Shown here: in pieces, positions 914-59,228 of the stretch
Position numbering within the stretch: the first letter of the stretch is position 1
Layout of the letters: the number at the start of each line of letters is the position of its first letter
Source of the DNA: Nematocida parisii ERTm1
Taxonomy: Eukaryota > Microsporidia
Direction of reading: 5' to 3'
NCBI RefSeq assembly: GCF_000250985.1
Contig: NW_013524646.1
Span: 186,001 to 250,000 of the forward strand
DNA: 64,000 bases
Notes under the pieces: model-generated
The model's database searches: none
Told to the model about the DNA's origin: nothing
What the model saw: only the letters and a program-made list of their open reading frames with translations
Translations under genes and position numbers: made by a program

Positions 914-1240
914 GAGATGTATACCAACATATATGTCTACTATATTATAAACAGGTCAGTCAGAATAATCCAATAATTAAATGCTACATGAATTTGTTTT
1001 TCAAATTATATTTTTATATTTATGTAAAAAGAAATAATTTATATTTCTGAATATACTAAAAAATCATTTTATTTCCTGCTATTATTATATTGTGCTATAA
1101 ACCCGGAAATTTATCTCTATGATATATTTATGATGAGATATAACCCGAATTCTTATAAAATAGATAATAATAGTCAAATTAATAAGAGTTACAAGTTTTT
1201 TCAGGTTATATCTAAGATTTAATTATTTTTATACAATTAT
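914..1240. other. Intergenic, no gene seen
   Basis: AT-rich spacer between two convergent genes. It holds one exact TAACCCGA motif at 1141-1148 inside GATATAACCCGAATTC. No RNA gene or small ORF is visible. Confidence 0.6.
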
Positions 1241-2050
1241 TCATTTGTATATGCTTTTGATAGATTTAAGCATTATCAAACTATTAGTACTATAACTATA
1301 TATAAGCACAATAAGACATAATATTATTACATTAATATAATGTATACCAATAATAGTCTTTAAAATAGCTAACTTTTTAGATCTACGAGTTTGAAATATT
1401 AAATATAGTGTTGTGCACATAAACATTACAGCAGATACTATAGGCAGACTCTGTGCAGTGGTTTTTATGATTCCATAATATTTTGTGCATTCAAAAATAT
1501 TTGGTAGTTCTATAATACCATAGAAGATAAGGCCTGCAACCATATATATCATTGCTGTTAATATGATATATACTATCGTGTTTCTTATCTTATATTTAGA
1601 ATGTTCCAATACATAAATCATAGGAATAAAAAACACGCATGCCCATGCACATATCCATATAACGTAGCATAAAAGCCTAACAATATAAAACCATGCAATT
1701 ACAATATTATATATTATATTTGGATTGTTGTTATGTACTTTAAACAAGAATTTAAATATTGTATTTTCAATTTTAGACAACCCACTAAATATTAATAAAA
1801 AGCAGGCCACAATTAGAATATACTTCGCATAGTATTTTAATAGCCAGCTCAAGCTCATTGGTACGGTGTAATAAGTATTTTCACTATTATTGGTTTTTTT
1901 TGCATCTTTTGAATTATTTAATGAATATGTTTCTACCAAACTAGCTACAATAGGCATTACACTCCATGGATGTGTTAGAGCTAACCTGTGCAGCCGCAAT
2001 AATAGTATGCTTATTCTTTTAGCAACTGGCATCTCTTCGTTTTGATCCAT
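1241..2050 (-). CDS. Multi-pass membrane protein, tandem paralogue A
   Basis: Function unknown. The 269-residue protein has a short polar N-terminus and about five or six hydrophobic segments (roughly residues 75-95, 115-150, 158-182, 195-220 and 232-255). It is clearly related to the next gene on the same strand. Shared blocks include the start (VAKRI/VAKRV then LTHPW/VTHPS), NTIVYIILTAMIY, GIIELPN and TKYY. Its ATG is preceded by TTTTTTGCTTAAAAAAAT, also present in the paralogue, so the duplication included the start region. There is no cleavable signal peptide and no catalytic motif. It looks like a lineage-specific membrane family. It is a real gene because similarity with its neighbour is at the protein level and continues over most of its length. 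Confidence 0.8.
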   Translation of the reverse strand: MDQNEEMPVAKRISILLLRLHRLALTHPWSVMPIVASLVETYSLNNSKDAKKTNNSENTYYTVPMSLSWLLKYYAKYILIVACFLLIFSGLSKIENTIFKFLFKVHNNNPNIIYNIVIAWFYIVRLLCYVIWICAWACVFFIPMIYVLEHSKYKIRNTIVYIILTAMIYMVAGLIFYGIIELPNIFECTKYYGIIKTTAQSLPIVSAVMFMCTTLYLIFQTRRSKKLAILKTIIGIHYINVIILCLIVLIYSYSTNSLIMLKSIKSIYK

Positions 2051-4832: not shown

Positions 4833-4860
4833 TAGAAATAGTGAATATTTTTTCATACTT

Positions 4861-5579: not shown

Positions 5580-8500
5580 CTACAAATTCAATGTGTAACT
5601 TCTAAAGATAATATCACAAATATCATAATGTATACCAAGTTTAGATTTTGTATAATTAGTGTTTTTTACGCTTATAACAATGTCTGTCATTCCTTCAATA
5701 TTATTTATAATGGGAACATACTTATCTATAGACATGGTTAGTTGGTTTTTTAGTTTACTTATGAAGTGTCTAATAGTAGGGCATATAATGGGGAATGTAC
5801 CGGTTTCATTTTCATTTACTTTATTTCCAACTAATAATCCATAGCAAACCATATCCATAAACTCGGATTTTCGTTTCAGCATATTTAGAAATAAGTTAAG
5901 AGTGCGGTTTTTAGAGTTACTGCTGATTGAAGATTCACTACTGGAATTAGCGAAACTATGGCTTAAATCTAAGCAGTAATTAGTGTATTCTTCAATGGAT
6001 GTCGGCAAATGAGTCAGCCACTCTAAAATAACCTCATTTTCATTATCGGTTTCTTGTATAATATTCATGCTATAGCACCCACAATCTTCATATTTGCTCA
6101 TAAGACCAATTATAAAGAAATCAGTATAGTAATTCTTTATATATACAAAAGTATTATTTAGCTCAATTATTCTATATGGCTTAATAAATCGGGTTATTTC
6201 TTTAATAAGGTAGTGCAAAAACTCAACAGGAACAAGGTCTGTGTATGAGTCAATCTGCTTTACTTCATATTTGGTGGTTTTTAACCAATACGGGCTTAAA
6301 TGCACTGCAGATGATATAAACTTTGAGAAAAACAAAGGAATTCTTGGCTTTATTCCGTTTTTATCATCTTCTATCTGTTTTCTATTTTGGATTTCTAATT
6401 TACTAATAGCGAGGATTTTATCTGTGTATATATCCATGCTTATAGTATTAAACTGCACAAAAACAAACTCTGTGGTTTTTATGTTCTCTTCTATGTGGTA
6501 GAATATAACATCGTGCTTCAAATTGTGCATATCCAGCATTGTTTTGCTCAGAGTAATATCATCGCTTATTAAAGACCAGGTTTTTCTATTTCGGTTATAT
6601 TTGAATGGGTATACATTATTAGTGAATGGTGAGTCTTCAGGAGTTTGAATGCCAAATGTACTTTTCAAGTGCTCTACTATATCCTTAATGGTGTGAACAT
6701 ACAGATATTCTATAGTGCCGTTCGTTTTAGAGGTATAAAATGGAAGGTGCACAACATGCACTCTGTGCCTTGTGTTGTCTACAAACTGAATATGATAGTG
6801 GTGGTGAAAAGACAGTTGTACAGCAGTGTAGTTGCCAATGCAATATGTAAGTGGTTCACATATTCTTCTAAGTTTTTTGTCCACTCCCTTATAGTTAATT
6901 TCTTTTTTTATAATCTTTATTCTGCACTTCACATACATCTGCGAAACAATAGTCTCTTTTCCCAGGAACAGCATTCTGTAGTTAGAAGGAACAGGCGTGT
7001 GCTTCTTGTTGAATACAAATTCTGGCCGGTCCTTCTGGGTTTTTATTGGCAAGACTGATTCTGAAATGTCCGTTGTTGAACTGCCAAACGATTTTTTTAA
7101 AATATCTTGTTTAGTCATGCAGTAAATGGCACTAACATAGTTATAAAACATACAAAATACCCTATAGATTTCTATGTACATCTGTGTATCGGTATATGTG
7201 TACCAGTCATACTTAATAGCTAGCCGCTCTATTGCGGCATATGAAAAAAACATTGAATTCATATCTCCTTGCGTTTTATCAGATAAGTAACAGACAATCA
7301 TGAGGCATTCTAAAAACTTGGGCTTGTCCTGTAGCTTTAAACCAGGTATATCTTTGTCTATTTCTAGTACATTGCATTTTATATCTTCAAGCATAGACCT
7401 TGGCATGTAAAACAAATCTTCATATATTTCAGGTATGCCCAAAATTGCATGCAGTTGTCTTTTTAACTTTGTTTCTTTTGATAAATTGCCACCTATTTCT
7501 TTATTTAGAAAATATGCAATATAGAAAATACTCTCAGCGCACCATCCTATATTTAGCTCTCTTTTAATATAAATATTGCCCAGCGCCATCGCGTGCAAAA
7601 CAGAGCTTTTTTTCTTACACGAGGCACCTTCAAAAAATGGCCTATAGTAAGAGGGCGTGTTTTTAAGCAGGTACTCATATAAATCATACATAAATCCACT
7701 GTAATAAGGCAGCCCAACTGGGGCAAAAATAGAATCTGCAACTTCTTTGTTCCTTGAAAGTTCTTCAAGATTAAAAATAAGCTTTACTATATCATGCCCT
7801 TTACACTCATAGAGCACCATCCATAAAGTCTTTTTTGACTTTACAAAATCTCTCATAACAGGCCGAAGATTTCCATATCTATAATCAGACAACTTGGTGC
7901 TGTCATGTATTTTCTTATTCTTCTGCATAGATCTATTTTTGCTTGCGTATGATCGAGATTTATATCTCTTCATACTACTCATAAGATTGGTATACTCTGT
8001 AGAATAATTTTTTACAACAATTGTTTCTAATTGAGCTGCATCTGTATTCACTCCCATACTAGCACAGATCTCTATAAGTTCAGAATTAATGTCTTGATTG
8101 CTATTTGTATTTAATTCTAGATTCTTGCTGGTACTTGCTATGGATGGAGTGATTTTTATATTTTGTAATATATTAATCTTAGGTTCTTTGCCCAATCCCG
8201 TGCATAATTTTTTTCTTTCACTGCACATGTCTTCTATATTTATATTAGAATAATTAATACTCGTTTCTGTAGCTGTATCTGTATATCCAGTGTCTGTATA
8301 CTCATTGCCTGTATTCACATATGTATTATTATCTGGGATAGTCTGCATTATAACATAAGAAGGTGCTTCTTTCGCAATACCAGAATATAATTCAGAATAA
8401 GTTAATGGTTCCGTTTTTTCCTCGTTTTCCCATGTATTATATGCAGTATTTGGTACATACTCTATATAACTCGAAGATGGCCCCGCTGTGTTTAAATAAG

Positions 8501-8924
8501 AATCATTTATCTGTGCCTGTGTATGCTCCTCTATATTCTGGTATGATGTATTATCCGTACTTGTACATGGCAAATCAGACCAACTATAATATGGTGCTTC
8601 AGGTGGTGCGTATTCTGTATTATTTACACACGAGTGCTCTATATCGCACGCCCCTAAATAATAATCAGATGTTATCTCATTAGTATATCCATGTGAATAT
8701 GTATTATACATACTATCAAGTGTGTTTTGTGTATAATATGTATTCATCTCATCTGAGTGCTCTATAGGTATTAATCCATCTATATTTTCAGTATAACTGT
8801 CTGAGATTTGATATATAGGTTCCTCAGGCGCTGTGCATATAATTATTCTATTAAGCTTAGTGTATAAGTATGTTATTATTAATATTATAAATATTTTCTT
8901 CCTTTTCCCTCTCATTATCTTCAT
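5580..8924 (-). CDS. Large secreted or membrane-anchored protein with Tyr/Thr/Asn-rich N-terminal region
   Basis: I do not recognise a family. The 1,114-residue protein begins with a basic stretch (MRGKRKK) and a hydrophobic segment (about residues 11-30) that looks like a signal peptide or signal anchor. Residues about 35-300 are of low complexity, rich in Tyr, Thr, Asn, Ser and Glu, with many short YT-, NT- and TDT-type patterns. A basic patch follows (about 315-345, KRYKSRSYASKNRSMQKNKK). The remaining 770 residues look globular, with several Cys and conserved-looking hydrophobic blocks such as a HHHYHIQF run. Architecture (signal sequence, disordered acidic/Tyr-rich linker, large globular part) suggests export. 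Large lineage-specific families of this size are known in Nematocida; membership here is a guess. The TAACCCGA motif lies about 120 bp upstream. Confidence 0.75.
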   Translation of the reverse strand: MKIMRGKRKKIFIILIITYLYTKLNRIIICTAPEEPIYQISDSYTENIDGLIPIEHSDEMNTYYTQNTLDSMYNTYSHGYTNEITSDYYLGACDIEHSCVNNTEYAPPEAPYYSWSDLPCTSTDNTSYQNIEEHTQAQINDSYLNTAGPSSSYIEYVPNTAYNTWENEEKTEPLTYSELYSGIAKEAPSYVIMQTIPDNNTYVNTGNEYTDTGYTDTATETSINYSNINIEDMCSERKKLCTGLGKEPKINILQNIKITPSIASTSKNLELNTNSNQDINSELIEICASMGVNTDAAQLETIVVKNYSTEYTNLMSSMKRYKSRSYASKNRSMQKNKKIHDSTKLSDYRYGNLRPVMRDFVKSKKTLWMVLYECKGHDIVKLIFNLEELSRNKEVADSIFAPVGLPYYSGFMYDLYEYLLKNTPSYYRPFFEGASCKKKSSVLHAMALGNIYIKRELNIGWCAESIFYIAYFLNKEIGGNLSKETKLKRQLHAILGIPEIYEDLFYMPRSMLEDIKCNVLEIDKDIPGLKLQDKPKFLECLMIVCYLSDKTQGDMNSMFFSYAAIERLAIKYDWYTYTDTQMYIEIYRVFCMFYNYVSAIYCMTKQDILKKSFGSSTTDISESVLPIKTQKDRPEFVFNKKHTPVPSNYRMLFLGKETIVSQMYVKCRIKIIKKEINYKGVDKKLRRICEPLTYCIGNYTAVQLSFHHHYHIQFVDNTRHRVHVVHLPFYTSKTNGTIEYLYVHTIKDIVEHLKSTFGIQTPEDSPFTNNVYPFKYNRNRKTWSLISDDITLSKTMLDMHNLKHDVIFYHIEENIKTTEFVFVQFNTISMDIYTDKILAISKLEIQNRKQIEDDKNGIKPRIPLFFSKFISSAVHLSPYWLKTTKYEVKQIDSYTDLVPVEFLHYLIKEITRFIKPYRIIELNNTFVYIKNYYTDFFIIGLMSKYEDCGCYSMNIIQETDNENEVILEWLTHLPTSIEEYTNYCLDLSHSFANSSSESSISSNSKNRTLNLFLNMLKRKSEFMDMVCYGLLVGNKVNENETGTFPIICPTIRHFISKLKNQLTMSIDKYVPIINNIEGMTDIVISVKNTNYTKSKLGIHYDICDIIFRSYTLNL

Positions 8925-9059
8925 TCTTATAATTTCTGGTCACAAAAATAATTTTTATTTATGTACAGGAAATCCTTTGAAAATTTATTACTTTATTAAC
9001 GGCGATATAAGTATTAAAATAGAAAATTTCTGACAGCTTTAATTTCGGGTTATTTCGGA

Positions 9060-9761
9060 TTATTTATTCAAATATGATTCAATCTCTTCTGTAGTAAGTA
9101 AATGAACGCCTTCTTTCTTGCACACCATCACTTCACAGTTAGACTTGCTAATGGGGTCTTTCATTACAGACTTAAGAAGCATCAGAGTGCTATGTATTGT
9201 TTCTTCTATGCTTTTATCTTTATTATAAGTATTCTCTAGTTCTGCAGTGACTGCCTCAGCTGCAGATCCAATGGCTTTGGCCTTATACCCTCTGTACGTA
9301 CCAGATGCATCTAATGAGAATAGTCGTGGTTCACTGTCATACCCTGGGACAAGAATGGAAATACCAAATGGCCGACTGAATATTTTATTATCAGACTTAT
9401 CTGATGAAAAGTTCAGTGCAATCGATGCAAGGTATTGTGCGACCCCTTCAACTGGTATTTTTTCATTGTATATGAACTTGTGATTAATTGCATTGTCTCT
9501 TGCTTTAGTAATAATTGTTCGGGCATCTCCACTCAGCCCAGAAAATGCAAATCCACAGTGCTCGTATACTAAATGGTGCTTCTTTACACTGTCTGGTATC
9601 TGCAGATTAGTCACTATCTTCTTCTCTGAGACAACAACCACACCAGTCTCTATTTTTACTCCTATGGTAGTTGTTCCCAAAGAGGCAGCCTTCATTGCAT
9701 ATTCAAGTTGGTGTATTCTCCCATCTGTGCTGTACGCATTTACATTTCTTCCTGAGTTCAT
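9060..9761 (-). CDS. PUP2: 20S proteasome subunit alpha type 5
   Basis: A structural ring subunit of the 20S proteasome core. The N-terminus has the alpha-type signature (VNAYSTDGRIHQLEYAMKA). The block IFSRPFGISILVPGYD, the LDASGTYRGYKAKAIGSAAEA segment and the ending LLTTEEIESYL match alpha5 (Pup2/PSMA5) better than other alpha subunits: alpha5 has a Met-Ser-Arg-Pro-Phe-Gly block, an AIGSASEGA segment and a FTKEELE-type tail. Length 233 is close to the usual 240-260. The ATG follows TAAAATATTTTATATG, a typical start context in this window. TCGGGTTA at 9045-9052 lies just past its stop codon; TAACCCGA at 9865-9872 lies about 105 bp upstream. Confidence 0.9.
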   Translation of the reverse strand: MNSGRNVNAYSTDGRIHQLEYAMKAASLGTTTIGVKIETGVVVVSEKKIVTNLQIPDSVKKHHLVYEHCGFAFSGLSGDARTIITKARDNAINHKFIYNEKIPVEGVAQYLASIALNFSSDKSDNKIFSRPFGISILVPGYDSEPRLFSLDASGTYRGYKAKAIGSAAEAVTAELENTYNKDKSIEETIHSTLMLLKSVMKDPISKSNCEVMVCKKEGVHLLTTEEIESYLNK

Positions 9762-10114
9762 ATAAAATATTTTATTTGTTTGTTTCTTATATGTATTAAT
9801 TTACAAATTGTCATTTGTCTTCTCTCATATACTCAATGACACACAGACTGAATTCTTTTTATTATAACCCGAATTTCAATGGAATATCATTAGTTCTCCT
9901 TTATTTTAGTACGTTTTGTTAACTATACAGAAGTAATGCGATATAACAGCATTTATTCTGCTATGTATTCCTAAACCAGAAGACATCTAAGATTTTATTT
10001 TATGCTTTATATGGAAATTGCCTATATTTAGAGTGTTTCAGGCTATAAATAATCTCTGGTATAATTGTTACTTAAAGAACACATCTTTATTTCTATTGAA
10101 TTTTCAAGTTATTT
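9762..10114. other. Intergenic, one TAACCCGA motif
   Basis: This 353-bp spacer lies between the Ste24 stop and the proteasome alpha5 start, both genes on the minus strand. It contains TTATAACCCGAATTTC at about 9863-9878. Nothing else is seen. Confidence 0.6.
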
Positions 10115-11419: not shown

Positions 11420-11754
11420 AAGAATAACAAACCTGAAATATTTAAATAATGTTTCAGAAATTCAGAATGTAAAACACCCGATATAACCCGAAGCATGGGG
11501 AGTGCATAGTACTAAATACACACTGTGTAATAAGTTATTATTATATAATACACAGTGTGTATTAAGTTTTATTATTATTATTTTATAGTATACAGTGTGT
11601 ATTAAGTTTTATTATTATTTTATATAAATTATTATTATTATATAGTATACAGTGTGCAATAAGTTATATAATATAGTATGCAGTGTGCAATAAGTTATAT
11701 TATTATAACCCGACATAACCCGAATATATTTATTATTTTTATTTTTATTTGGTA
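11420..11754. repeat. Spacer with repeated (A)CACAGTGTGTATTAAG palindromic units and paired TAACCCGA
   Basis: This divergent spacer between Ste24 and LSm1 contains at least five imperfect copies of a unit resembling ATACACAGTGTGTATTAAGTT or its shorter form (about 11517-11700), separated by TTATTATTA runs. The units are half-palindromes related to the TTATTACACA-N-TGTGTAATAA element elsewhere in the window. TAACCCGA occurs at 11484-11491, 11706-11713 and 11716-11723; the last two are exactly 10 bp apart. Confidence 0.75.
11706..11723 (+). repeat. TAACCCGA pair, 10 bp apart
   Basis: Exact octamers start at 11706 and 11716, 32 bp upstream of the LSm1 ATG. Confidence 0.85.
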
Positions 11755-12072
11755 ATGGACAGTCCTTCAACCGACTGTAAAGGAATAAGATTACTTGAAG
11801 AGTATTTAGATAAAGATATATTTGTGGTACTAAGGGATAATACGTACATTAAAGGCATTCTACGGTCATACGATCAATATTATAATATATTACTAGAAGA
11901 TATTACACAATACGTAATAAGTAATAATGAATATTTACTAACGGAGAGTGAGTCGGTTTTATTACGCGGTGAGAATATAATCCTACTGGGAGAGGGAACA
12001 TTCAATGAACAACCAGATATAACCCGATCTAACCCGAAATTCACAGATGATTTAAATTATATTACACTATAA
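11755..12072 (+). CDS. LSM1: LSm1-like Sm-fold protein
   Basis: LSm1 is the defining subunit of the cytoplasmic Lsm1-7 ring, which binds oligoadenylated mRNA and promotes decapping. The Sm1 motif is LDKDIFVVLRDNTYIKGILRSYDQYYNILLED and Sm2 is VLLRGENIILLGE. LRSYDQ and RGENI-LLGE are typical of LSm1. The open frame reaches back to a TTG; I use the ATG at 11755, giving 105 residues. The C-terminal tail is odd: the bases at 12020-12037 are two copies of TAACCCGA, 10 bp apart, read through as coding sequence (ITRSNPK). The stop is only 4 bp from the stop of the convergent small gene. Confidence 0.85.
   Translation: MDSPSTDCKGIRLLEEYLDKDIFVVLRDNTYIKGILRSYDQYYNILLEDITQYVISNNEYLLTESESVLLRGENIILLGEGTFNEQPDITRSNPKFTDDLNYITL
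12020..12037 (+). repeat. TAACCCGA pair inside the LSm1 coding end
   Basis: Exact octamers start at 12020 and 12030 within the C-terminal codons of LSm1. Confidence 0.85.
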
Positions 12073-12076
12073 GTAT

Positions 12077-12226
12077 TTATTTAAATAATTCTTTATGTAG
12101 TCCTTCTAATTGCCCTTCTATTTCTGAATCATATTCTGGTTTATTTGTAATTTCTGGCTTTATTGGTGAATTCTCTTCAAATGGGATATCGTACATGAGA
12201 AGTCTTGTGAATGCCTTCTTATCCAT
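12077..12226 (-). CDS. Small acidic protein of 49 residues
   Basis: I found this by translating the strand opposite LSm1. The product starts MDKKAFTRLLMYDIPFEE, is rich in Glu and Pro, and ends GLHKELFK. The ATG is preceded by ATTTTTTATATTT, the same T-rich leader seen at established genes in the window. The frame fits exactly between neighbouring genes (4 bp after LSm1, 56 bp before the next gene's stop), which argues for a real gene. No family recognised. It might be a short subunit of a complex, but nothing in the sequence shows this. Confidence 0.5.
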   Translation of the reverse strand: MDKKAFTRLLMYDIPFEENSPIKPEITNKPEYDSEIEGQLEGLHKELFK

Positions 12227-12282
12227 AAATATAAAAAATAAAATACACAAATACTCATAAGTCTTAATACTTATAAAACGGG

Positions 12283-12477
12283 TTAATTCGGGTTATAAGT
12301 TATTCTTTTATATATTTCAGAGAATCCTTCTAGTTCTTGCTTTATACTTTTAATAGATGCTTGCTCATCCCAACCCATCCCCCAATCTTCATCTGTATAC
12401 GAATTGATTGTAGTCATAACATTAGGAGTACTCTGTATAAAGTCGAATAAATCATTGAATGACTCAGTCGTATTCAT
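12283..12477 (-). CDS. Small acidic protein of 64 residues ending in TAACCCGAAT-encoded residues
   Basis: Function unknown. The product is acidic with two Trp (DEDWGMGWDEQ), predicted helical in its second half. The ATG follows AAAATATTTTATT, a usual start context here. The last codons and the stop (YNPN then TAA) are encoded by the minus-strand sequence TATAACCCGAATTAA, one of the dispersed TAACCCGA repeats, so the repeat sets the C-terminus. It lies just after the minisatellite on its 5' side. Length and position leave some doubt. Confidence 0.5.
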   Translation of the reverse strand: MNTTESFNDLFDFIQSTPNVMTTINSYTDEDWGMGWDEQASIKSIKQELEGFSEIYKRITYNPN

Positions 12478-13045
12478 AATAAAATATTTTATAATAAAAT
12501 AGACTAAATAGACTAATAGACTAATAGACTAACAGATGATTAATAGACTAATACAGTATACTAATAGACTAATAGACTAACAGATGATTAATAGACTAAT
12601 ACAGTATACTAATAGACTAATACAGTGCAGTATATTAATAGATGATTAATAGACTAATACAGTATACTAATAGACTAATACAGTGCAGTATACTAATAGA
12701 CTAATACAGTGCAGTATATTAATAGACTAATAGACTAACAGATGATTAATAGACTAATACAGTGCAGTATACTCATGTATATTATTCTTATTACTGTATA
12801 CTAATAGACTAATACATATATAATATACTCCTATTAATGTATACTATATATACTCCTGTATACTACTACACTAATACTTCTGTTATACTAATAGACTAAT
12901 ACTGTACATGACCCATACTCCTGCTACTCCTGTATACTACTACACTAATACTTCTGTTATACTAATAGACTAATACTGTACATGACCCATACTCCTGCTA
13001 CTCCTGTATACTACCCTATTACATATACTCTGATTATGCCATACA
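12478..13045. repeat. Minisatellite built on TATACTAATAGACTAATA
   Basis: The 12487-12830 part is an array of TAGACTAATA and ACAGTATACTAATAGACTAATA units with higher-order forms that include CAGATGATTAATAGACTAATA and CAGTGCAGTATACTAATAG. The 12843-13016 part carries a duplicated unit of about 73 bp (CTCCTGTATACTACTACACTAATAC and following). The same core motif recurs at about 25.1-25.4 kb. There is no coding frame. Confidence 0.9.
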
Positions 13046-14263
13046 TTAATCATATTTATATACATCTGGTATAGTATACGGAATAAGAGATACTTTATCT
13101 GAGAAATGCTCTGATAGTACTTTATCAAGTGGGTGATCCTTTGAGTTACCTTTACTGACTATAAATATGGACAGGTTTAATTTCTTAACTGACTGTATAT
13201 ACTTATCATAATCAACAGGAGATATCATAAATATATCTGTAAATGCATTACTACCTATAACACTAGATAATTGCATGAATTTACTCCTATAAGTATCTAT
13301 CCTACTGAATAATTCTATTACACACCTGAATAAGACAAGTGAACAGAAATAATTACACTCCGTGTAGAAGTAATTAGATACCTTATATAACATAAGGATA
13401 TCTTCTGATTTAATAAGGTATGATAATACATCTACTTCTAATCCTGACTGTGTTTTATACTCATTTGGTATGGTATTATGATACTCTTTAATGAACGTAT
13501 TAAACCCATGCTCATGTATTAAGTTAAAGTATGGGAGAGTGTCTGTTATGATACCTACTTCAACATCTCTTGATATATTTATATTATGCTTATTTAAGAA
13601 TGTACGTGTCCCTGGTGCACTGATTATTTCTATGTCATTTGATTTGAGTATTTCTACTTCATTATCCTTTGGTAGTATTAGGTTATCACCGATTAATTTC
13701 TTTGTTTTTAATGATTCTTGTAGGATTGGGTGGTTTAAGAACCCTTTCTGGGTTATTATTGCTTGTGATATAAAATAAAGCAGTCTTAAGTTATACCCGG
13801 TGTTACTCATCTCAATAAGTGACCAGCCCGTATAAAATGCATTGGGTAAGTCTTTTATCTGTAAGTATGCAAATATTATTACTTTTAGGATTGATTCTGT
13901 ATCTGATGGATCTGTGCTTAGTTTTACTGCTGTAGTATACTTATCTATGGATTCATTCACTTTGTTATTCCTGAGCAGATAATCACCGTATATTAAATAC
14001 GAAATGTGCGTATTATTATGTATATTAAGTACACTTAGTATATCTAATTCTGTTTTAGTTGTATCTAATAGAACTGTATACATATCTCGTATAACAGCAG
14101 GTGTATCTGGTTTATTTAGTACTTCTTTAACACCTACTGTATTATCCTCTGAAAGCATTCTTTCAATCTCTTCCCTGGTAGTATTCATAAAAATAAAAAG
14201 TACTGTGACTAACAGTACAAGAATGCATACACCAAGGAATAACCATAAATCAGCAACTAACAT
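13046..14263 (-). CDS. Membrane-anchored protein with TPR-like helices
   Basis: Function unknown. Starting at the ATG at 14263 (the longer frame begins with GTG) the protein has 405 residues. One strong hydrophobic segment (about residues 5-26, ADLWLFLGVCILVLLVTVLF) is followed by a helical body. Residues about 90-160 look like TPR repeats (YLIYGDYLLRNNKVNESIDKYTTAVKL). An N-terminal anchor followed by TPRs is the architecture of Tom70, the mitosomal import receptor kept by some microsporidia, so Tom70-like is one possibility, but the repeat signal is too weak to decide. The C-terminal half has no recognised domain. Confidence 0.7.
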   Translation of the reverse strand: MLVADLWLFLGVCILVLLVTVLFIFMNTTREEIERMLSEDNTVGVKEVLNKPDTPAVIRDMYTVLLDTTKTELDILSVLNIHNNTHISYLIYGDYLLRNNKVNESIDKYTTAVKLSTDPSDTESILKVIIFAYLQIKDLPNAFYTGWSLIEMSNTGYNLRLLYFISQAIITQKGFLNHPILQESLKTKKLIGDNLILPKDNEVEILKSNDIEIISAPGTRTFLNKHNINISRDVEVGIITDTLPYFNLIHEHGFNTFIKEYHNTIPNEYKTQSGLEVDVLSYLIKSEDILMLYKVSNYFYTECNYFCSLVLFRCVIELFSRIDTYRSKFMQLSSVIGSNAFTDIFMISPVDYDKYIQSVKKLNLSIFIVSKGNSKDHPLDKVLSEHFSDKVSLIPYTIPDVYKYD

Positions 14264-14617
14264 ATTATACACAGTATAAGTACTGTATAAGCATACCAGT
14301 AGTACAGTATAAGTACAGTATAAGTATGTTCAGATCTAATATACTGTAGTGTACTATTATATAAGTAGTATATGTGTCCGAGTTATATCTGTACTGTACT
14401 TGTACTATATTATACCCCTACTTTTACTTATACGGTTGTATTACTGGTATAATATTCAATTCTCATTGATATAATAGATTTATTAGCTTAAACCTTATTA
14501 GGTGTGTACTGCATATCGCTTATTTTATATTAATATGCATTCGGGTTATTTCGAAATTCTAATTAGTGCTATTACATCTTATACCAACAGAAATTCTGTG
14601 GTGGAGTAAATGATTCT
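14264..14617. repeat. Spacer with ACAGTATAAGT repeats
   Basis: The first 70 bp hold repeats of ACAGTATAAGTACAGTATAAG (about 14272-14330), then further GTACTATTATA/AAGTA patterns. TCGGGTTA occurs at 14541-14548. No gene. Confidence 0.65.
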
Positions 14618-15208
14618 TTAAGATAATGCTTTATCTATTTTATGGCGTACTCCCACTAACCTGCCTTCAAGTTCTCCCATAAGATCACTCTTTACAGTAC
14701 TTGTCTTTGATGTATCTTCTGTATTACTGCTTTTACTTGTATTATCACTCAGATTAGTAGAAAGTTTACTTGGGAGTATACCGCCCATGGGCATTGGTGG
14801 AGGTGGTGGTGGTAATGATGTGGTATGATCAGGTGTTTCTATTACAATGTTATTACATAATGGATTATTAACAATCTCTTCTGAACTAGGAGTACTTATA
14901 TGCTTAATAATTGGTTCTTGTATGGGTATGTCCTGCTCCGTATCTGTGTGTGGCACAGAAGTGTCTTTCTTATTACTATTCTCTTCTATTTCATTCGTAT
15001 TAGACGTATTCTCATTTACTTCTGTGTTATTACTCATTCTTATTGTTTCTATTACAGTAAGCCTGTCTTTAATAATACTTTCTAGTTCTATGAGCTTATT
15101 ATACTGTAATACTATTATGCACAGTGATATAACCGTAGGCACTAGAAGTATTAAATAACTCAGTTTATGTGTCATTGGTATCTTATCCGGCTTAATTAGA
15201 CTCACCAT
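14618..15208 (-). CDS. Membrane-anchored, disordered protein with a polyproline run
   Basis: Function unknown. The 196-residue protein has a hydrophobic segment near the N-terminus (about residues 16-36), then a disordered Asn/Thr/Ser/Glu-rich region, and a polyproline segment (LPPPPPPMPMGG, about residues 131-142). The last 30 residues look helical (GELEGRLVGVRHKIDKALS). Polyproline runs of this form bind profilin, EVH1 or SH3 domains in other proteins; that role here is inference. Another gene in the window has an SH3 domain (52301-52918). The ATG follows AAAAACATTTTTTTAAGA. Confidence 0.65.
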   Translation of the reverse strand: MVSLIKPDKIPMTHKLSYLILLVPTVISLCIIVLQYNKLIELESIIKDRLTVIETIRMSNNTEVNENTSNTNEIEENSNKKDTSVPHTDTEQDIPIQEPIIKHISTPSSEEIVNNPLCNNIVIETPDHTTSLPPPPPPMPMGGILPSKLSTNLSDNTSKSSNTEDTSKTSTVKSDLMGELEGRLVGVRHKIDKALS

Positions 15209-15653
15209 TCTTAAAAAAATGTTTTTATTCTTATCTATACCCCGATAGGGATAACCCGATATAACCCGAATTTATGGTATAAGTATATTACACTGATAAT
15301 ATTGCTAATAAGACTTATTATTATTAGATGTAACCCAAATCTATTTTATAATTAATATACACATATCATAACCCGAATTCTCTTTAAATTTCTCTTCTTT
15401 AGAAATTCTTTTTTATTTTTTTATTTTTATTTTCTATTTATAGTTTTAGTGCAATCCTTATTTTATTAGTTTAAAATTTAATAGTAATTGTGTTATAAGT
15501 TATACACAGATAGACTTACCATATAAGGAAATAATAAATATTTGGAGTATAAATAGAGAAATGAAAATTTAAAAAATTTATTAATCAAGAGACTTTAAGG
15601 CCAGAAAATAAATTAATTCCTCTGGCATATAAAATTTAAAATTTAACTGTTAA
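15209..15653. other. Divergent spacer with three TAACCCGA motifs
   Basis: This 445-bp AT-rich region holds TAACCCGA at 15252-15259 and 15262-15269 (10 bp apart) and at 15369-15376, plus the degenerate TAACCCAAAT near 15332. It lies between divergent genes and so presumably includes both promoters. No ORF. Confidence 0.65.
15252..15269 (+). repeat. TAACCCGA pair, 10 bp apart
   Basis: Exact octamers start at 15252 and 15262, upstream of the polyproline membrane protein gene. Confidence 0.85.
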
Positions 15654-15950
15654 ATGACAAATTCAGAAGCAATTAACCCAGAAGTACTACAAAATACAAT
15701 ATATACACAAGATGATAATCGGACCAATATAACAAATGAGTATCTAAAAAGGATTGTAAAAATAATTATTCTTATAATATTGGCAATTATAGCAATATAC
15801 GTTATACCCAAAAGAAGTGATGAATTAAGAATAGAAGAAAGACAACTAAGATTAGAAGAACAAATAAGAATAGATGATGAAAGATGCAGAGAGGACTTGA
15901 AAGAAGACAAAAGGCGCAGAGATGAAATAACCCAAAAATTACATGATTAA
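15654..15950 (+). CDS. Small membrane protein with charged coiled-coil tail
   Basis: Function unknown. The 98-residue protein has a polar N-terminus, a hydrophobic segment at about residues 34-51 (VKIIILIILAIIAIYVI), then a highly charged helix with heptad-like spacing (ERQLRLEEQIRIDDERCREDLKED). Its architecture (polar start, single membrane helix, charged coiled coil) is a shorter version of the two paralogues at 16328 and 19101, although I cannot align the sequences. Confidence 0.6.
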   Translation: MTNSEAINPEVLQNTIYTQDDNRTNITNEYLKRIVKIIILIILAIIAIYVIPKRSDELRIEERQLRLEEQIRIDDERCREDLKEDKRRRDEITQKLHD

Positions 15951-16327
15951 GCATATAATGCATACAGATGAACTCAAAGGCAGACTAAATATTTAAAAAT
16001 ATAACCCACATAAATACTCCTACAATTAAATTCAGTTTATTACTATAAGATATAAGTATAGAATGACTTAGTATACGTATACTTATATTATTCATTAATA
16101 TTCGGGGCATTACTGATTGAATTATCCCCTTGATACTCCTTATTTAAACAGGGGATGAGTGAAATTCGGGTTATATCGGGGTATACTTCTACATACTGAG
16201 TGGTTATATCGGGGTATAATACGTGTATAATTAATGAATTCATCAGAAAATCATTTAAATTTGATATAATTAATATTTATAACGATTTTTTAAAAGTATA
16301 AATATTGAAAATTTTTACAACCGTCAA
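15951..16327. other. Spacer including the start of a segmental duplication
   Basis: TCGGGTTA at 16166-16173 is followed by two TATATCGGGGTATA forms (about 16174 and 16206). From about 16223 the sequence is nearly identical to 18993-19100 and carries the common leader of the two paralogous genes. Confidence 0.7.
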
Positions 16328-17258
16328 ATGGTAAACACACAAACAGCAATACAAACAGCAATGAAAACCGTAACAGAAACAGCAACACAAGCAATAAATT
16401 TCATAAGAGAGAGTGTCTCTGAAATATCACTAGACGGTATTAAAGATATAATATACGCATCTACTGATGAGCAGATTGATTTAAGAAACAGATGTATACT
16501 AATCAGTATAGCAGCAATTACACTAATTATAGTCACATGTGTATACTGCATAATCAGAAACAAACTTAAAGCAGCAAAAGCAAGAAGACAAGCAGGACAA
16601 ACAGAAGCAGAGAGACAAGAAGAAAAAAGAAAAAAAGCAGATGCAAGAAGACAAGCACAAGCAAATGCAGCAGATACAATCGCAGAAGCACTTACACCAC
16701 AGATATTAATAGAAGCACAAGCACAGGCTGTCAAGCAAGTACAAGCAGAAGAAGAAAGAATACAAGCAGATGCAAGAAGACAAGCACATGCAAATGCAGC
16801 AGAAAGAAGACAAGCAGATGCAATAAAAAAACAAGAAGAAGAAAAAAGAATACAAGCAGAAGAAGCAAGAAAAAAACAAGAAGATGCAGATAAAATTGAA
16901 AAAGATAAAATAAGATATGAAAGGGGAAAAAAACAAGCAGAAGAAAGAAGAAGACAAAGAGAACAATTTAAATAAAAATTAATTATAACCCGACTAACAC
17001 CATCTTATATGAACATGACCAATTAATAACGATCGGGATCACAGGCAGACCAGGAACAGGTTAACTTATGACTATGTGATCTGAATAACCCGAATTTCGA
17101 GGGTCACTCATGGGGTATTAATGACTTATTCACTGGTCTACTATATGCGCATGTGTATTAATGGTGCATATTTAAAGTACTCCCGGAATATAATAAAGAA
17201 CCTTCTAGTAACTCATTATGCACTGATAATAAATCTATATTAATTATATTAATAATTG
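16223..17258. repeat. Segmental duplication, copy 1
   Basis: This segment matches 18993-20510: the leader, the start of the coding sequence, the segment after the stop (ACTAACACCATCTTATATG and following) and a trailing block ending in ATAAATCTATATTAATTATATTAATAA. The copies differ by in-frame expansions in the coding repeat and by a longer GATCGGGATC array in copy 2. Homology stops at about 17258, where a GC-richer LINE remnant begins. Confidence 0.85.
16328..16975 (+). CDS. Single-membrane-helix protein with Ala/Glu/Lys/Arg/Gln-rich coiled coil, paralogue 1
   Basis: Function unknown. This 215-residue product has a Thr/Ala-rich N-terminus, a hydrophobic segment at about residues 57-76 (CILISIAAITLIIVTCVYCI), then a continuous charged helix made of units such as ARRQAHANAAERRQADA and EEEKRIQAEEARKKQ. 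It resembles a TolA-like helical spacer in composition only. It is about 90% identical over shared parts to the gene at 19101, which has extra repeats. It sits in a segmental duplication. Confidence 0.75.
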   Translation: MVNTQTAIQTAMKTVTETATQAINFIRESVSEISLDGIKDIIYASTDEQIDLRNRCILISIAAITLIIVTCVYCIIRNKLKAAKARRQAGQTEAERQEEKRKKADARRQAQANAADTIAEALTPQILIEAQAQAVKQVQAEEERIQADARRQAHANAAERRQADAIKKQEEEKRIQAEEARKKQEDADKIEKDKIRYERGKKQAEERRRQREQFK

Positions 17259-17392
17259 ACGTGTCCCCGTTGCGGAAGCCGGTTGTAAGTAATGTAATAG
17301 TCAACTAGAGAAAGGAAATCTGAATATCCGAGTGTTCCTTTATTGAAATTCGGGTTATAGGGGTATTACTGATAGAATGATTCCCATAGTAA

Positions 17393-19100: not shown

Positions 19101-20012
19101 ATGGTAAACACACAAACAGCAATACAAACAGCAATGAAAACCGTAACAGAAACAGCAACAGAAACAGCAACACAAGCAATAAATTTCATAAGAGAGAGTG
19201 TCTCTGAAATATCACTAGACAGTATTAAAGATATAATATACGCATCTACTGATGAGCAGATTGATTTAAGAAACAGATGTATACTAATCAGTATAACAGC
19301 AATTACACTAATTATAGTCACATGTATATACTGCATAATCAGAAACAAACTTAAAGCAGCAAAAGCAAGAAGACAAGCAGGACAAACAGAAGCAGAGAGA
19401 CAAGAAGAAAAAAGAAAAAAAGCAGATGCAGATGCAGCAGAAAGAAGAAAAGCAGATGCAGAAGAAGCAGATAAATTAACAAAACAAGCAGAAGAAGAAA
19501 GAATACAAGCAGAAGAAGCAAGAAGACAAGCACATGCAAATGCAGCAGAAAGAAGACAAGCAGCTGCAATAAAAAAACAAGAAGAAGAAAAAAGAATACA
19601 AGCAGAAGAAGCAGATAAATTAACAAAACAAGCAGAAGAAAAAAGAATACAAGCAGAAGAAGCAGATAAATTAACAAAACAAGCAGAAGAAGCAAGAAGA
19701 CAAGCAGATGCAGCAGATACAATCGCAGAAGCACTTACACCACAGATATTAATAGAAGCACAAGCACAGGCTGTCAAGCAAGTACAAGCAGCAGCAATAA
19801 GACAAGCAGATGCAGATAAAAAAGAAGCAAAAGCAATAAAGAATAAAGAAATAAAAACTGTAAAGAGAATAAAAAAGAGACAGGAAGAAGCAAATAAAAT
19901 AAAAGTCAGAAAAATGAATAAAAGAGAAAGGCAGAAACAGAACAATATTAAAAAGAGACAGGCAGGAATAGAAAATCAGCAAAAGACAAAAGAAAAGAAG
20001 ACAAAAAAATAA
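19101..20012 (+). CDS. Single-membrane-helix protein with expanded coiled-coil repeats, paralogue 2
   Basis: The 303-residue protein has the same N-terminus and membrane helix as the gene at 16328. The coiled coil contains three copies of a 16-18 residue unit with core EEADKLTKQAEE followed by KRIQA or similar, which is absent from paralogue 1. The C-terminus is strongly basic (KKRQAGIENQQKTKEKKTKK), unlike paralogue 1. The repeat is preserved in frame and its units differ by multiples of three, so length change is tolerated by the protein. Function unknown; an adhesive or spacer role is inference. Confidence 0.75.
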   Translation: MVNTQTAIQTAMKTVTETATETATQAINFIRESVSEISLDSIKDIIYASTDEQIDLRNRCILISITAITLIIVTCIYCIIRNKLKAAKARRQAGQTEAERQEEKRKKADADAAERRKADAEEADKLTKQAEEERIQAEEARRQAHANAAERRQAAAIKKQEEEKRIQAEEADKLTKQAEEKRIQAEEADKLTKQAEEARRQADAADTIAEALTPQILIEAQAQAVKQVQAAAIRQADADKKEAKAIKNKEIKTVKRIKKRQEEANKIKVRKMNKRERQKQNNIKKRQAGIENQQKTKEKKTKK

Positions 20013-20570
20013 AAATTAAGCACAACCCGACTAACACCATCTTATATGAACATGACCAATTAATAACGATCGGGATCTATAGACCAGGAACAAGCTGATT
20101 AACTTATGACTGCCGATCGGAACCACAGACAGACCGGCTGGTTAACTAATAACGATCGGGATCATAGGCCAGCTGGTTAACTTATGACTGCCGATCGGGA
20201 TCACAGACAGACCAGCTGGTTAATTAATGCCGATCGGGATCGCAGACAGACCGGCTGGTTAACTTATGACTAATTAATGCCGATCGGGATCTATAGACCA
20301 GGAACAAGCTGGTTAACTTATGGCTATGTGACTTGAATAACCCGATTAACCCGATTTTGGTCACTTATGTCGTATTAATGACTTATTCACTGGTCTACTA
20401 TACGCACTATTATTACACATGTGCATATTTAAAGTACTCCCTGCGTATAATAAAGAACCAGTAACTCATTATGCACTGATAATAAATCTATATTAATTAT
20501 ATTAATAACGGTTATTTCCTAATATGGAAATTAAAATATTTAGTAATATATACAGTATTTATTAGTATAC
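20013..20570. repeat. Minisatellite with GATCGGGATC and AGCTGGTTAACTTATG units
   Basis: About 20035-20330 carries roughly six units of 40-50 bp. Each contains a form of TAATAACGATCGGGATC or TGCCGATCGGGATC, then ACAGACAGACC and AGCTGGTTAACTTATGACT. Copy 1 of the duplication (from about 17000) has a single unit. TAACCCGA occurs at 20338-20345 and 20347-20354. The rest is AT-rich spacer. Confidence 0.85.
20338..20354 (+). repeat. TAACCCGA pair, 9 bp apart
   Basis: Exact octamers start at 20338 and 20347, in the trailing part of duplication copy 2. Confidence 0.85.
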
Positions 20571-37849: not shown

Positions 37850-38118
37850 TGCACGGTTTGTTTTAGCATGTTTTATAGCAGTAGACTTTGTTACAGTAGA
37901 GTGTAGCACATACACGCATAAAAACACAAACACGACCCAGGAAAACAGATTGTTTTAAACTAAGCAACAGTGCAATCTGTATGCTAGGGCATATAACAAA
38001 CTTAAATACTAAGAACTCAATAAAGAGACTTTAAGTTGTTCTTGTAGTAAAAATATAAATCATCAGAAACACACTATTATAACAAGGCAAAGCTAACCCG
38101 AAATTTATTCTCCATGTA

Positions 38119-39408: not shown

Positions 39409-39422
39409 AAAAAAGAAAATAT

Positions 39423-40820: not shown

Positions 40821-41622
40821 GTGAAAATCTTTACTAAATTATTTTCCATTATATTTACTACCATTACCAACCATAAAAGAGCCCAGACTAATCCAAAAAA
40901 GACAATAACTCAAACTAACCAAAAATAACAAATGAGTTCTCATAGATACAATTCTACAGGAATTAAAAGGTTTAATATACCCATAAATAATCAGAACCCG
41001 AATTTTCTAAATATAATATGCAAGTTTCTATAATTAATGAATATTTTAAATTGCCCAATGTATAAATTAAATCATAAGCCTATTCTCTTTATACCTCTAA
41101 ATTAAAACTGTAATACTTAATAGTACAAAGTCTAACCCGACTAAACTAAATAATCTTAATGTTCTTATAATTATAATTGCACATAATGACTATTTATATA
41201 AGAATTCTGAAATACCTCATGTTAACTCATTCACATCAGTTGATTCTCTGCTTAAATTTCAGAGTTATATCTCTGATTATTTCTGAGTATTTTAAAAGTT
41301 TCAGATGCATAGAAATAATCTACTAAATTTAAAAATAAAAATACAAAAAGATAAAATAGTTTATAAACCTTTCATTTAATTTACCTATCGGCAGAGAGGA
41401 TGCTACAAGACACATTGTCAGTAAAGCATAAGAATAAATTAGGAACAAGAAACACCCTGTAAACACCCAGAAACAATTATTTATCTTTATAAGAGATAAT
41501 TATACAGTTAAACTATTGGTAGAGTAATATAGAATGAGAATCACTGGTTATCTGTAATTAACACTATATAATACACAGTATGTAATTTTGGGTTGCTATA
41601 TGATTATGATAATTTTTAATTC
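40821..41622. other. 802-bp spacer, no gene seen
   Basis: AT-rich. It contains GAACCCGAATTTTC near 40995, TAACCCGA at 41133-41140 and a half-palindrome ATACACAGTATGTAAT near 41571. No ORF or RNA gene recognised. Confidence 0.5.
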
Positions 41623-45231: not shown

Positions 45232-46569
45232 ATGATTGGTTCCTACATTACATATTTCGTGAGCGCTATTAATAATATTCCCCCTCGAATTACAAATGCA
45301 CAAAATAATTCTGTGCTCACTCCTAGGGACATACTCAGTGAGTCTTCTTCATATGCAGGACCTGTCAAAACAGGCATACCTGCAGTAAAAAAAACAATAG
45401 AGTTAAATATACATAGCATCACACACAGAACAGCTGGTTTTGTGGGTGTAAGTAAAACATGTGCACTGCTGAGTATTCCAATTATGTCTGGAATTATATC
45501 GTATAAACTCTCTCTATATTTTATGGCACTAAGCAGAACATTTGGTATAGATCACCATAAAAGAAGCAAAGAGAAGATACCAGAATCAATTGGATTGTCG
45601 TCCGCCATTTCCTTTGTGCTTTGTATATTTATTCTTTCTTCATTCTTTCCCAGCCACAAGGAGAGCCTTCTCATATTTTCCAATACAATCATTCTGAACA
45701 CTCTAATGGGGTATGTAGATGATACGGTGGATCTAAGCTGGTCTTGCAAACTGCTATTCCCAATTATTGCCACCTTTCCTTTGATTATAACGTACAGTGG
45801 AAGTACTTCAATGGTTGTTCCATTCTACGGTGTATATAACTTGGGAAATATTTTCTATGCATTGCTAATTTTACTGGGAATATACTTTACAAATGCTATT
45901 AATATTCTGAGTGGGATTAATGGAGTAGAGTGTGGTCAAATACTAGTAATTAGCAGTATGATGTGCGTTGATAGGTGTGCATTCCCAGATGACAAGAGTA
46001 CATTAAGCGCACTTCTCTGCCTATCACTATTTACATCTTCTTATGGATTATTTATGTGGAACAAGTATCCATCTAAATGCTTTGTTGGTGATGTATTCTG
46101 TTACTTCTCAGGATCAGCTCTTCTATGCATTGGGTTATTCGGAGGATTTATGAAAACTCTTTTCCTGTTTCTTATTCCACAGTTGTTTAATTTTGTGTTA
46201 AGTACGCCACAGATGTTTAAAATACTCCCATGCCCCAGACATCGAATGCCCTCTGTAAAGCATTTGGATGGGCCAGAAAGTATTACAGTTCTTGTTCCCT
46301 CAACCATGCAGTGCAAGAAGACTTACATTGCCACGGGATATTTGCGCCGGGCAATAGTAAGAGTATATAAATTCTTCAATCTTATATCATACACTGAAAA
46401 TGAAGAGACCATTGAAATCAGTAATTTTACTATTCTAAATGTTATTTTAGTATGGTGTGGCCCTATGCAAGAGAAAACTCTCTTTTTTATATATTCAGCT
46501 ATTCAGGCCGCAGTATGCACATTTGTTATACTAATTAAATTATACTTTGCCCCAAATGAGTCCGAGTAA
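45232..46569 (+). CDS. ALG7: UDP-GlcNAc:dolichyl-phosphate GlcNAc-1-phosphate transferase
   Basis: DPAGT1/Alg7 makes GlcNAc-PP-dolichol, the first step of lipid-linked oligosaccharide for N-glycosylation, at the ER membrane. The 445-residue product has about ten membrane segments and the family's loops: GIDHHKRSKEKIPESIGL (about 107-125), GYVDDTVDLSW with the Asp-Asp pair at about 163-164, NAINILSGINGVE (about 223-235), GDVFCYFSG (about 287-295) and CPRHRMP (about 337-343). Length and loop order match. Many microsporidia are reported to have lost most of the N-glycosylation pathway, so presence of this gene is worth noting. Confidence 0.87.
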   Translation: MIGSYITYFVSAINNIPPRITNAQNNSVLTPRDILSESSSYAGPVKTGIPAVKKTIELNIHSITHRTAGFVGVSKTCALLSIPIMSGIISYKLSLYFMALSRTFGIDHHKRSKEKIPESIGLSSAISFVLCIFILSSFFPSHKESLLIFSNTIILNTLMGYVDDTVDLSWSCKLLFPIIATFPLIITYSGSTSMVVPFYGVYNLGNIFYALLILLGIYFTNAINILSGINGVECGQILVISSMMCVDRCAFPDDKSTLSALLCLSLFTSSYGLFMWNKYPSKCFVGDVFCYFSGSALLCIGLFGGFMKTLFLFLIPQLFNFVLSTPQMFKILPCPRHRMPSVKHLDGPESITVLVPSTMQCKKTYIATGYLRRAIVRVYKFFNLISYTENEETIEISNFTILNVILVWCGPMQEKTLFFIYSAIQAAVCTFVILIKLYFAPNESE

Positions 46570-47276
46570 TCAGTACTAACTAAAAATACTTTAAGTTGTC
46601 TATAAAACAAGATTGAGCAACTGTGCAATAGATTTTAAGTCTAAAGCATATTCCTGCATGAAATTAATAAACACAGAATAGTTGTGTATTCTTAATAAAA
46701 CAGTTATATTTACACCAATTAACTACTATTTAAACCATTTGACACATTTATTGCAATTCGGGTTATACTTCAAATATTTAATCTATTTGTATTATAATTC
46801 TATTTTTATGACACATTTACTGTAAAATACTGCAGTGTTAAAGGTCTGCTTTTAATTTATATTCACTTAGAAAATATTAGCATTGCAATTGCAGTAGTAA
46901 TTTAGTCGAATTCTTTTTGGTTTAGTTTCGCATGTTTTTGCTATATTTTTATCATCTCTATCTATTTTGTTTTTACACTTCAATAAATGGCAGTATAACT
47001 ATCCCATTTAGACTTACATACTTCTAACTGGTTAGTTAATAAATTGCACAGCTTATATATGTCTCTGTGAAAACAAGTAACCAGTAGTAATAGAGCACTA
47101 TACCTCCACTGATCTCTTCTAGTTAGCCCACTGGTGTTTAATTGTCTTGTACTATCAGAAGAAAATATCAAATGCCAAACATCAAATATTAATTATATTT
47201 TATGGGGTAATCACTTTATCACTTTAATATATGCACTATAAATGATAGACAGATAATTTTTGTTTTTATTAAGCAA
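46570..47276. other. Spacer of 707 bp, no gene seen
   Basis: AT-rich; TCGGGTTA at 46758-46765. A reading frame on the minus strand near 46980-47171 begins only at TTG and was not accepted. Confidence 0.5.
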
Positions 47277-58637: not shown

Positions 58638-59228
58638 TTATAACCTGAAATGTGCCAATTGATACAGTTTCTGATTCTAATAGACATAATTTTCTGTTTC
58701 TACCCTAGAGCATACTCAAACCTAGAAAAGGCCATTTCTAACTCACAATGTGCTCTGGCATAGAAAACAGAAAATTTAAAATACCCAAAAATAATAAAAT
58801 TGTAATTTTAAATAGAATTTCGGGTTATTAACAATATTTAGTGTGTTAACTATGGTGGCATCAATGCAGTGTAATAATTCAATTTTCCTCTAATCCAGCA
58901 TTGTGCTATTCTAATAAAATATCTAAATATTTCAATGTATATTAAAATATTCATTATCTCTGTTATAATCTATTATATAGTAGTATGCCATGAGTTAGCC
59001 TAATTATACGCTCAAAGTATTTTAATTGTAACACTTCAAGCATAATTATTTCAATAACTAGAGCGGGGTTTCCCCCTTCCTCGTAAATATGAACTCCTAT
59101 TGATCATCTTAATTTCATCTTTATTAAATTACAGAAACTCTTATATAGTTTCTGCCCCCATTATTTGTGATCACGGCATGCATATCCATATCAAAAAATG
59201 GTGTGCACACATATTACTATCACACTAA
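58638..59228. other. Convergent spacer, no gene seen
   Basis: This 591-bp AT-rich region holds TTTCGGGTTATTAAC at about 58818-58832. The other parts show no repeat or RNA gene. Confidence 0.55.

Follow-up and report, generated by a model that had tools for sequence, protein, structure and literature searches.

The stretch of DNA analysed here, termed the window, spans 64,000 nucleotides (C1:186001-250000) of the genome of Nematocida parisii, which is described as a natural parasite of C. elegans. Among its genes are two encoding proteasome alpha subunits and one (45232-46569) encoding a GlcNAc-1-phosphate transferase with 94% identity to a Nematocida protein. The octamer TAACCCGA occurs in the window in 30 exact copies, distributed over both strands. 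A preliminary description of this DNA listed 29 of these start positions, all of them correctly, and overlooked a thirtieth at 6189-6196 on the minus strand. Its placing of the copies at gene edges holds in that 25 of the 30 lie outside called ORFs, but a preferred distance to start codons is absent. The remark that the octamer is frequently followed by AATT is a fair one, with ATT or AATT following 14 of the 30 copies.

The five pairs exactly 10 bp apart and the one pair at 9 bp that had been noted in the window are all present. The exact-match search places a pair of the form TAACCCGA-N2-TAACCCGA, in 10-bp phase, at 11706-11723 on the plus strand. On the same strand, the 10-bp pair that starts at 12020 and 12030 is preceded by an imperfect third unit, CAACCAGA, at 12010, and the whole element (12010-12037) falls in a doubtful 105-aa ORF. 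The 10-bp pair at 15252-15269 (plus) is located 43-53 bp upstream of the start of a minus-strand ORF (14618-15208) and is in opposite orientation to it, while the pair at 20338-20354 (plus) is the one in 9-bp phase and has a diverged local duplicate at 17086 with a single unit. Two 10-bp pairs are on the minus strand: that at 21329-21346 is 53-63 bp upstream of, and in the same orientation as, a proteasome alpha-subunit gene (20571-21275, minus), and that at 27910-27927 has convergent ORFs on either side.

Other copies in the window are accompanied by imperfect partners. An imperfect upstream partner in 10-bp phase is found beside the octamers at 9045-9052 (TAATCCGA; element 9045-9062, minus), 11484-11491 (ACACCCGA; 11474-11491, plus) and 16166-16173 (TACCCCGA; 16166-16183, minus), and an imperfect downstream partner in the same phase, TAACCCGT, beside the octamer at 12288-12295 (12278-12295, minus). 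Weak downstream partners with two mismatches and a 9-bp phase follow the plus-strand octamers at 16986-16993 (TAACACCA; 16986-17002) and 28573-28580 (TAACTCAA; 28573-28589). The remaining copies are single. Convergent ORFs flank those at 1141-1148 (plus) and 58820-58827 (minus); tandem intergenic regions hold those at 14541-14548 (minus), 17350-17357 (minus), 38094-38101 (plus), 41133-41140 (plus) and 46758-46765 (minus); and a divergent region holds the copy at 15369-15376 (plus). The octamer at 9865-9872 (plus) precedes a proteasome alpha-5-like gene (9060-9761, minus) by about 100 bp and is in opposite orientation to it, and that at 17086-17093 (plus) lies in a local duplicate that is 82% identical to the stretch at 20266. 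The overlooked copy at 6189-6196 is within a 1114-aa ORF (5580-8924), and the copy at 33127-33134 (minus) is within the ORF 32495-33295, 161 nt from its ATG.

The excess over chance that had been claimed for the octamer is confirmed. In dinucleotide shuffles of the window (n=100) the octamer averages 0.45 copies and never exceeds 3. The 3.98-Mb Nematocida genome, assembled in 11 contigs, holds 1052 copies (517 plus, 535 minus) against 80 of the word read backwards, and is thus far from the near-random count that would have undermined the observation; 1052 is a lower bound because stretches of the assembly read N. Background models were applied to a sample of 270,167 bases, about 7% of the genome, drawn from contig ends, the window and the opening 100 kb of C1. 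Ranked by excess under an order-2 model, TAACCCGA is the top 8-mer of all, with 108 copies seen and 2.06 expected, and it is also first under an order-4 model (16.1 expected). It is therefore the strongest over-represented 8-mer of the sampled genome, a single exact word with a defined dimer grammar. The intergenic part of the sample (94,388 bases) contains 85 copies against 0.96 expected, and in these bases none of the 24 one-base variants exceeds 15 copies, the number reached by the commonest, TAACCCAA. A weaker preference extends into the flanks: in the sample, A precedes 89 and follows 83 of the 108 copies, and A or T comes next. Together, the shuffles, the reversed-word control and the 8-mer background models rule out chance or composition as the source of the excess. 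Neither is the word limited to contig ends, with 42 copies in ten 10-kb contig-end blocks and 62 in 154 kb of interior.

Several other words are over-represented locally. CTTATTAC and GTGTAATA are packed in a few AT-rich blocks (window 28001-36000 and C1:32001-48000) that look like a local repeat array; the window bin at 28-32 kb contains 14 and 22 copies of them, respectively, and both reach their highest density between convergent genes. TAGACTAA forms dense blocks at window 12001-16000 and C1:32001-36000; a single 4-kb bin of the window contains 18 copies, and of its 31 copies in tandem regions 26 are antisense.

Pairing of the octamer follows a strict grammar throughout the genome. With spacers of 0-14 bases allowed, 117 same-strand exact pairs are found, and none with the reversed pattern. 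Among the 100 of these 117 pairs that are listed, the spacer is two bases in 76, one base in 17 and three bases in 7, while spacers of 0 or 4-14 bases do not occur, so that the period is 9-11 bp in all 100. The two-base spacers are of ten kinds, with TA (40) and CA (19) the commonest. Exact copies in the sample that lie within 48 bp of each other are always on the same strand and 9, 10 or 11 bp apart, and no opposite-strand pair nearer than 49 bp is present in these 270 kb. When partners with up to two mismatches are admitted, phased pairs take in 55 of 120 sites in the sample and 18 of the window's 30; for comparison, control distances yield such a neighbour at about 0.4-0.5 of 126 sites per offset. 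Association appears to stop at two units, as a partner on each side is found for only 2 of 120 sample sites (6.8 expected) and only one exact triple of TAACCCGA exists genome-wide. The same phased-pair scan, run as a background comparison only, matched 62 scattered stretches in viral contigs and at least 119 in bacterial and archaeal contigs; among the matches listed (142 loci) spacers of one, two and three bases stand at 116:35:23, compared with 17:76:7 in Nematocida.

Imperfect partners vary in a manner that depends on their position in the pair. Genome-wide, the octamer is followed by TAACCC and a base other than G in 53 cases, of which 52 are in phase and 34 have TAACCCTA as the partner (reversed control 0), whereas the opposite order, sought with a slightly looser pattern, gives 6 cases with 3 in phase (reversed control 2). 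An upstream unit altered at its first base, the second being left free, precedes the octamer in 36 cases, all with a spacer of 1-2 bases (reversed control 0, genome-wide); none of the 15 imperfect downstream partners in the sample is altered at the first base. In the sample, mismatches at positions 1-3 and 6-8 number 10 and 3 in upstream partners (n=12) and 0 and 16 in downstream partners (n=15), a contrast with a Fisher p of 1.4e-5 when counted on mismatches. Downstream partners thus vary in the 3′ half only, position 5 included, and upstream partners mainly at the 5′ edge. From this polar pattern follows a composite site, nAACCCGA-N1-3-TAACCCnA, in which the inner parts are fixed and the outer edges are tolerant. 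Near-matches had been ascribed to decay; for those in phase with a full copy, edge-specific variation is found instead. Two proteins or domains lying abreast on one helix face would leave such fixed inner and tolerant outer edges, a polarity that neither slippage nor telomerase would be expected to produce.

The possibility that the octamers belong to dispersed repeat families, with the pairs arising as tandem slippage products that decay at random, is scarcely credible. Within 250 bp of 61 of the 108 sites there is some resemblance to sequence elsewhere in the sample, which spans the site in 23, and some of these copies are in a subtelomeric coding family. Since similarity spans only 23 sites, TAACCCGA is not one repeat family, an outcome that had been named as a reason to discount the observation; the other 85 sites are without spanning similarity within the 270-kb sample, about 7% of the genome. 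Moreover, slippage would give neither ten kinds of two-base spacer at one period nor polar variation at the edges. Dispersed repeats and slippage were rejected on these two grounds, the comparison of flanks and the polar variation of partners.

Duplicated segments indicate how the word evolves. In five comparisons between duplicates with at least 90% local identity outside called ORFs (L011/L012 twice, L029/L010, and L029/L019 twice), a hand count shows that the octamer is kept in none, and 15 of 40 octamer positions are changed (13 of 40 with L013 in place of L019), which is faster than in the flanks; the set is small and comes mostly from contig ends where gene calls are incomplete. Less similar duplicates are mixed. 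The octamer is kept between 17086 and 20338 (82% identity) and has one change at 16986 (73%), and it is lost or changed in the second unit of the 20338 pair and at L013:269, L019:7245 and L019:9394. The window stretches at about 16986-17350 and 19779-20518 form a diverged duplication, 73-82% identical, with a single octamer in one and the 9-bp pair in the other. A subtelomeric coding family at the contig ends L010, L013, L015, L019 and L029 carries the octamer or near-forms of it antisense in a conserved stretch, where they probably arose by chance and were then copied by duplication. In one such family, four copies retain the word and two have it altered. The comparisons suggest, at the level of sequence, that the octamer is gained or lost rapidly, which fits the turnover of binding sites and yet remains the main oddity of the element.

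The core TAACCC, and the prominence of TAACCCTA among imperfect downstream partners, bear on a possible relation to telomeres. The repeat TTAGGG has been reported from several microsporidia, and the unit is TTAGGG, TTAGG or TTAG depending on the lineage (PMC12449221, PMC13174016); the accessible portions of these two papers give no telomere repeat for Nematocida. The preliminary description had offered scattered telomere-like repeats as one of its candidates. That suggestion survives as regards the core and TAACCCTA, the partner in 34 of 53 imperfect downstream cases, and fails as regards arrays, there being 0 matches to TAACCCTAACCCTAA and 0 to three TTAGG(N) units. A telomeric array is ruled out by these zero matches and by the single exact triple, and the telomere-type word TAACCCTA is itself little enriched overall (5 seen against 2.2 expected in the 94,388 intergenic bases). 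It is conceivable that the octamers are interstitial telomere-like units that telomerase or break repair left as scars, copied into the genome from an RNA template. Besides the shared core, the commonest imperfect partner and the microsporidian telomere repeat, such an origin could claim the frequent presence of the octamer in one duplicate and its absence from the other. However, octamer-present and octamer-absent duplicates of at least 90% identity differ mainly by substitutions, with a length change of at most one base, and neither the single triple, the polar partner variation nor the want of arrays in the searches is what scars of this kind would predict; we regard the idea as very improbable.

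The position of the octamer relative to genes was assessed with home-made gene calls (ORF plus coding score), which comprise 141 genes in the sample and are incomplete at contig ends. Density is the same in convergent regions (1.52 per kb; 17 in 11.2 kb) as in divergent regions (1.53 per kb; 16 in 10.4 kb), and is 0.80 per kb in tandem regions (34 in 42.4 kb), where 13 copies are sense and 21 antisense. Octamers within 75 bp of an ATG number 10 of 66, with 9.9 expected from random placement in the same regions, and in the sample no preferred distance or strand relative to called genes is seen. For the 107 genes that encode 150 aa or more, the 350 bp upstream contain an octamer in 25 cases and the 350 bp downstream in 30. 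Paired copies are in divergent or convergent regions in 27 of 42 intergenic cases and single copies in 16 of 37 (both members of a pair counted, sample edges left out). Called ORFs of at least 250 aa in the sample contain 16 octamers, at least two of which are copies in one coding family. The coding-sequence octamers are mostly sense (11 of 16), and the sense copies translate as ITR or with NNP or NP. An RNA-level element was considered and rejected for the lack of strand bias in tandem regions, yet in these longer ORFs the count is 11 sense against 5 antisense.

On these distributions in the sample a core promoter element was rejected, by position and by the octamer-rich convergent regions. 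The octamer is also not the known microsporidian CCC signal, because it has no gene-relative position and is as dense in convergent as in divergent regions; the C-rich promoter element that had been proposed for it is for the same reasons not supported. The data instead support the view that the octamer is placed as an architectural or general regulatory element would be, and unlike a start-codon signal.

In one alternative, the octamer would be an ordinary promoter element serving a stage-specific regulon, with the phased pair bound by a transcription factor upstream of its genes and the other copies due to chance or distal, and some strong clusters do lie where this would place them. At L031, a ubiquitin-activating E1 gene is preceded at 49-96 bp by a pair and a single copy in sense orientation, a PSMD12-like gene at 72-82 bp by another sense pair, and a SWIRM/Myb gene by two sense pairs; one of the window's proteasome alpha genes likewise has a sense pair upstream. 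Elements of the PACE-like type, which control proteasome regulons, are found upstream of most proteasome genes. The octamer is upstream of 5 of 14 proteasome (PF00227) genes compared with 25 of 107 genes generally. A proteasome/ubiquitin regulon, a candidate prompted by the two window genes and L031, was therefore rejected, with 9 of the 14 genes lacking the octamer in upstream stretches of 341-511 bp, one of them common to two divergent genes; sites farther away are possible. Against the promoter element speak the convergent regions, which should be promoter-free but are as dense as divergent ones, the want of strand or distance preference, and a further L031 pair that sits inside the PSMD12-like ORF, and we hold this alternative to be unlikely.

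The pairs are unevenly distributed along the contigs. On C1-C5, 97 exact pairs (after removal of two close neighbours) show a variance-to-mean ratio of 3.09 in 50-kb bins, compared with an average of 0.98 and a maximum of 1.78 in 2000 random pair sets. Among the 100 listed exact pairs, 18 fall in C4:382-472 kb and 1 in C4:30-382 kb. Imperfect pairs (71 on C1-C5 of 88 in phase; a separate set, some of which are within 100 bp of an exact pair) track the exact-pair bins with a Pearson coefficient of 0.50, a value as high being reached in 7 of 5000 permutations. Octamers might accordingly mark chromosome domains for replication timing or meiotic recombination, by analogy with Taz1; internal telomere-like sites bound by Taz1 in fission yeast are thought to act near late origins (see also PMC4737732, in its accessible part). 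The region C4:410-420k, with 11 copies, and C4:200-210k, with one, have similar coding fractions (0.63 and 0.56), although they were chosen post hoc for contrast and coding density was compared for this one contrast only (L031 against L032). However, single loci cluster less (variance-to-mean 1.98 against a 99% limit of 1.84, C1 plus strand only), and the number of intergenic regions in the sample that hold an octamer, 42 of 114, is what their lengths predict (41.5). A role in marking domains is possible but doubtful.

Of the three candidates in the preliminary description, the DNA-binding-protein site is thus the best supported, by strict 9-11 bp phasing, one orientation and polar degeneracy, and it outlasts both the C-rich promoter element and telomere-like arrays. 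The octamer is probably the recognition site of one abundant DNA-binding protein, a general regulatory or architectural factor acting between genes. From the sequence pattern we infer that a protein reads the octamer and binds head-to-tail with cooperativity: one protein would bind TAACCCGA singly or as a head-to-tail pair on one helix face, and binding at a phased pair would be cooperative. The bound factor would keep intergenic DNA open or bounded, in a nucleosome-exclusion, insulator or polymerase-roadblock role, and would not switch one particular set of genes. Eukaryotic factor sites normally include many weak variants, and the near-digital specificity of the octamer is unusual and counts against reading it as a protein site. 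The octamers in called ORFs, the loss between duplicates and the weak TRF match described below also weigh against this explanation.

The reader of the octamer may be a Myb protein of the TRF/Tbf1 type. Ten Myb-domain matches are present in the genome, and one candidate is a 345-aa protein (L039:643-1680) with a single C-terminal Myb domain (Pfam E 5.6e-6) and 100% identity to N. parisii NEPAR06_1596. Its best PDB match is weak (E 0.047) and is to the zebrafish TRF protein Terfa. The N-terminal part has no family match, the single-sequence fold is poor (mean pLDDT 45), and a homology search returned its own N. parisii cluster only. The TRF-like domain order, read from sequence, is suggestive only, and the assignment of NEPAR06_1596 as the octamer-reading protein is tentative; a strong c-Myb type protein in the same genome is a competitor. 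Five octamers occur past the stop codon of the 345-aa gene, one of them within TAACCCTAACCCGA, and the dense group at L039:1680-2100 that includes TAACCCTAACCCGA has a 6-bp step there in place of the usual 9-11 bp. A bolder proposal would have a telomere-type Myb protein recognise a polar dimer code in fixed phase, AACCCGA-N2-TAACCC, and, having left the telomere, act as the main organiser of the genome, with pairs bounding domains of 50-100 kb. We think this improbable; if it is true, we know of no earlier description of a general regulatory factor system in microsporidia.

To our knowledge, the organisation of microsporidian gene expression beyond start-codon signals is little understood. 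The octamer provides a ready bait (for example, TAACCCGATATAACCCGA) for a genome-wide DNA-binding factor of the phylum, and makes it possible to ask whether telomere-type Myb factors have taken on general regulatory roles outside yeasts. A description of it was not found in the microsporidian and Nematocida motif literature as represented by titles and the beginnings of abstracts, mostly outside subscription journals (PMC4589312 and PMC5423893 included, in part).

With regard to known systems, the sites of general regulatory factors occur in hundreds of copies, are enriched between genes, stand in either orientation and are found at promoters and gene ends, and the core of the Reb1 site is TTACCCG. 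The octamer resembles such sites in its 1052 copies and intergenic excess (85 against 0.96), as it resembles the yeast Reb1, Rap1, Abf1 and Tbf1 sites in being present at many places genome-wide; its core, TAACCCG, is one base different from that of Reb1, and its placement in either orientation, equally dense in convergent and divergent regions, is also that of a general regulatory factor site. Yeast general regulatory factors are reported to exclude nucleosomes, with insulator capacity for Rap1 and Tbf1 (PMC6410037, PMC2897762, in their accessible parts). Unlike the sites of these factors, octamers form phased polar pairs, have few weak variants and belong to a microsporidian clade, and their factor is only putative. 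Telobox or TRF-type sites (TRF1/2, Tbf1, Taz1) share TAACCC with the octamer, and a TRF protein is the best, though weak, PDB match of the candidate Myb protein, but the dominant word here has GA, not TA, at its end, enrichment of TAACCCTA is slight and the searches found no arrays.

Rap1-type tandem half-sites are two, close together and in the same orientation. The octamer pairs are similar in their close spacing and one orientation, and differ in that octamers occur more often singly than in exact pairs, and in that a pair may consist of two full octamers. CCC-like and GGG-like signals have been reported from five microsporidian species including Encephalitozoon, and the CCC-like signal is directly upstream of the start codon in most E. 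cuniculi genes (PMC2803860, in its accessible part). This signal and the octamer both contain a cytosine triplet in an AT-rich intergenic setting; unlike the CCC-like signal, the octamer has no start-codon position and is upstream in 25 of 107 genes only.
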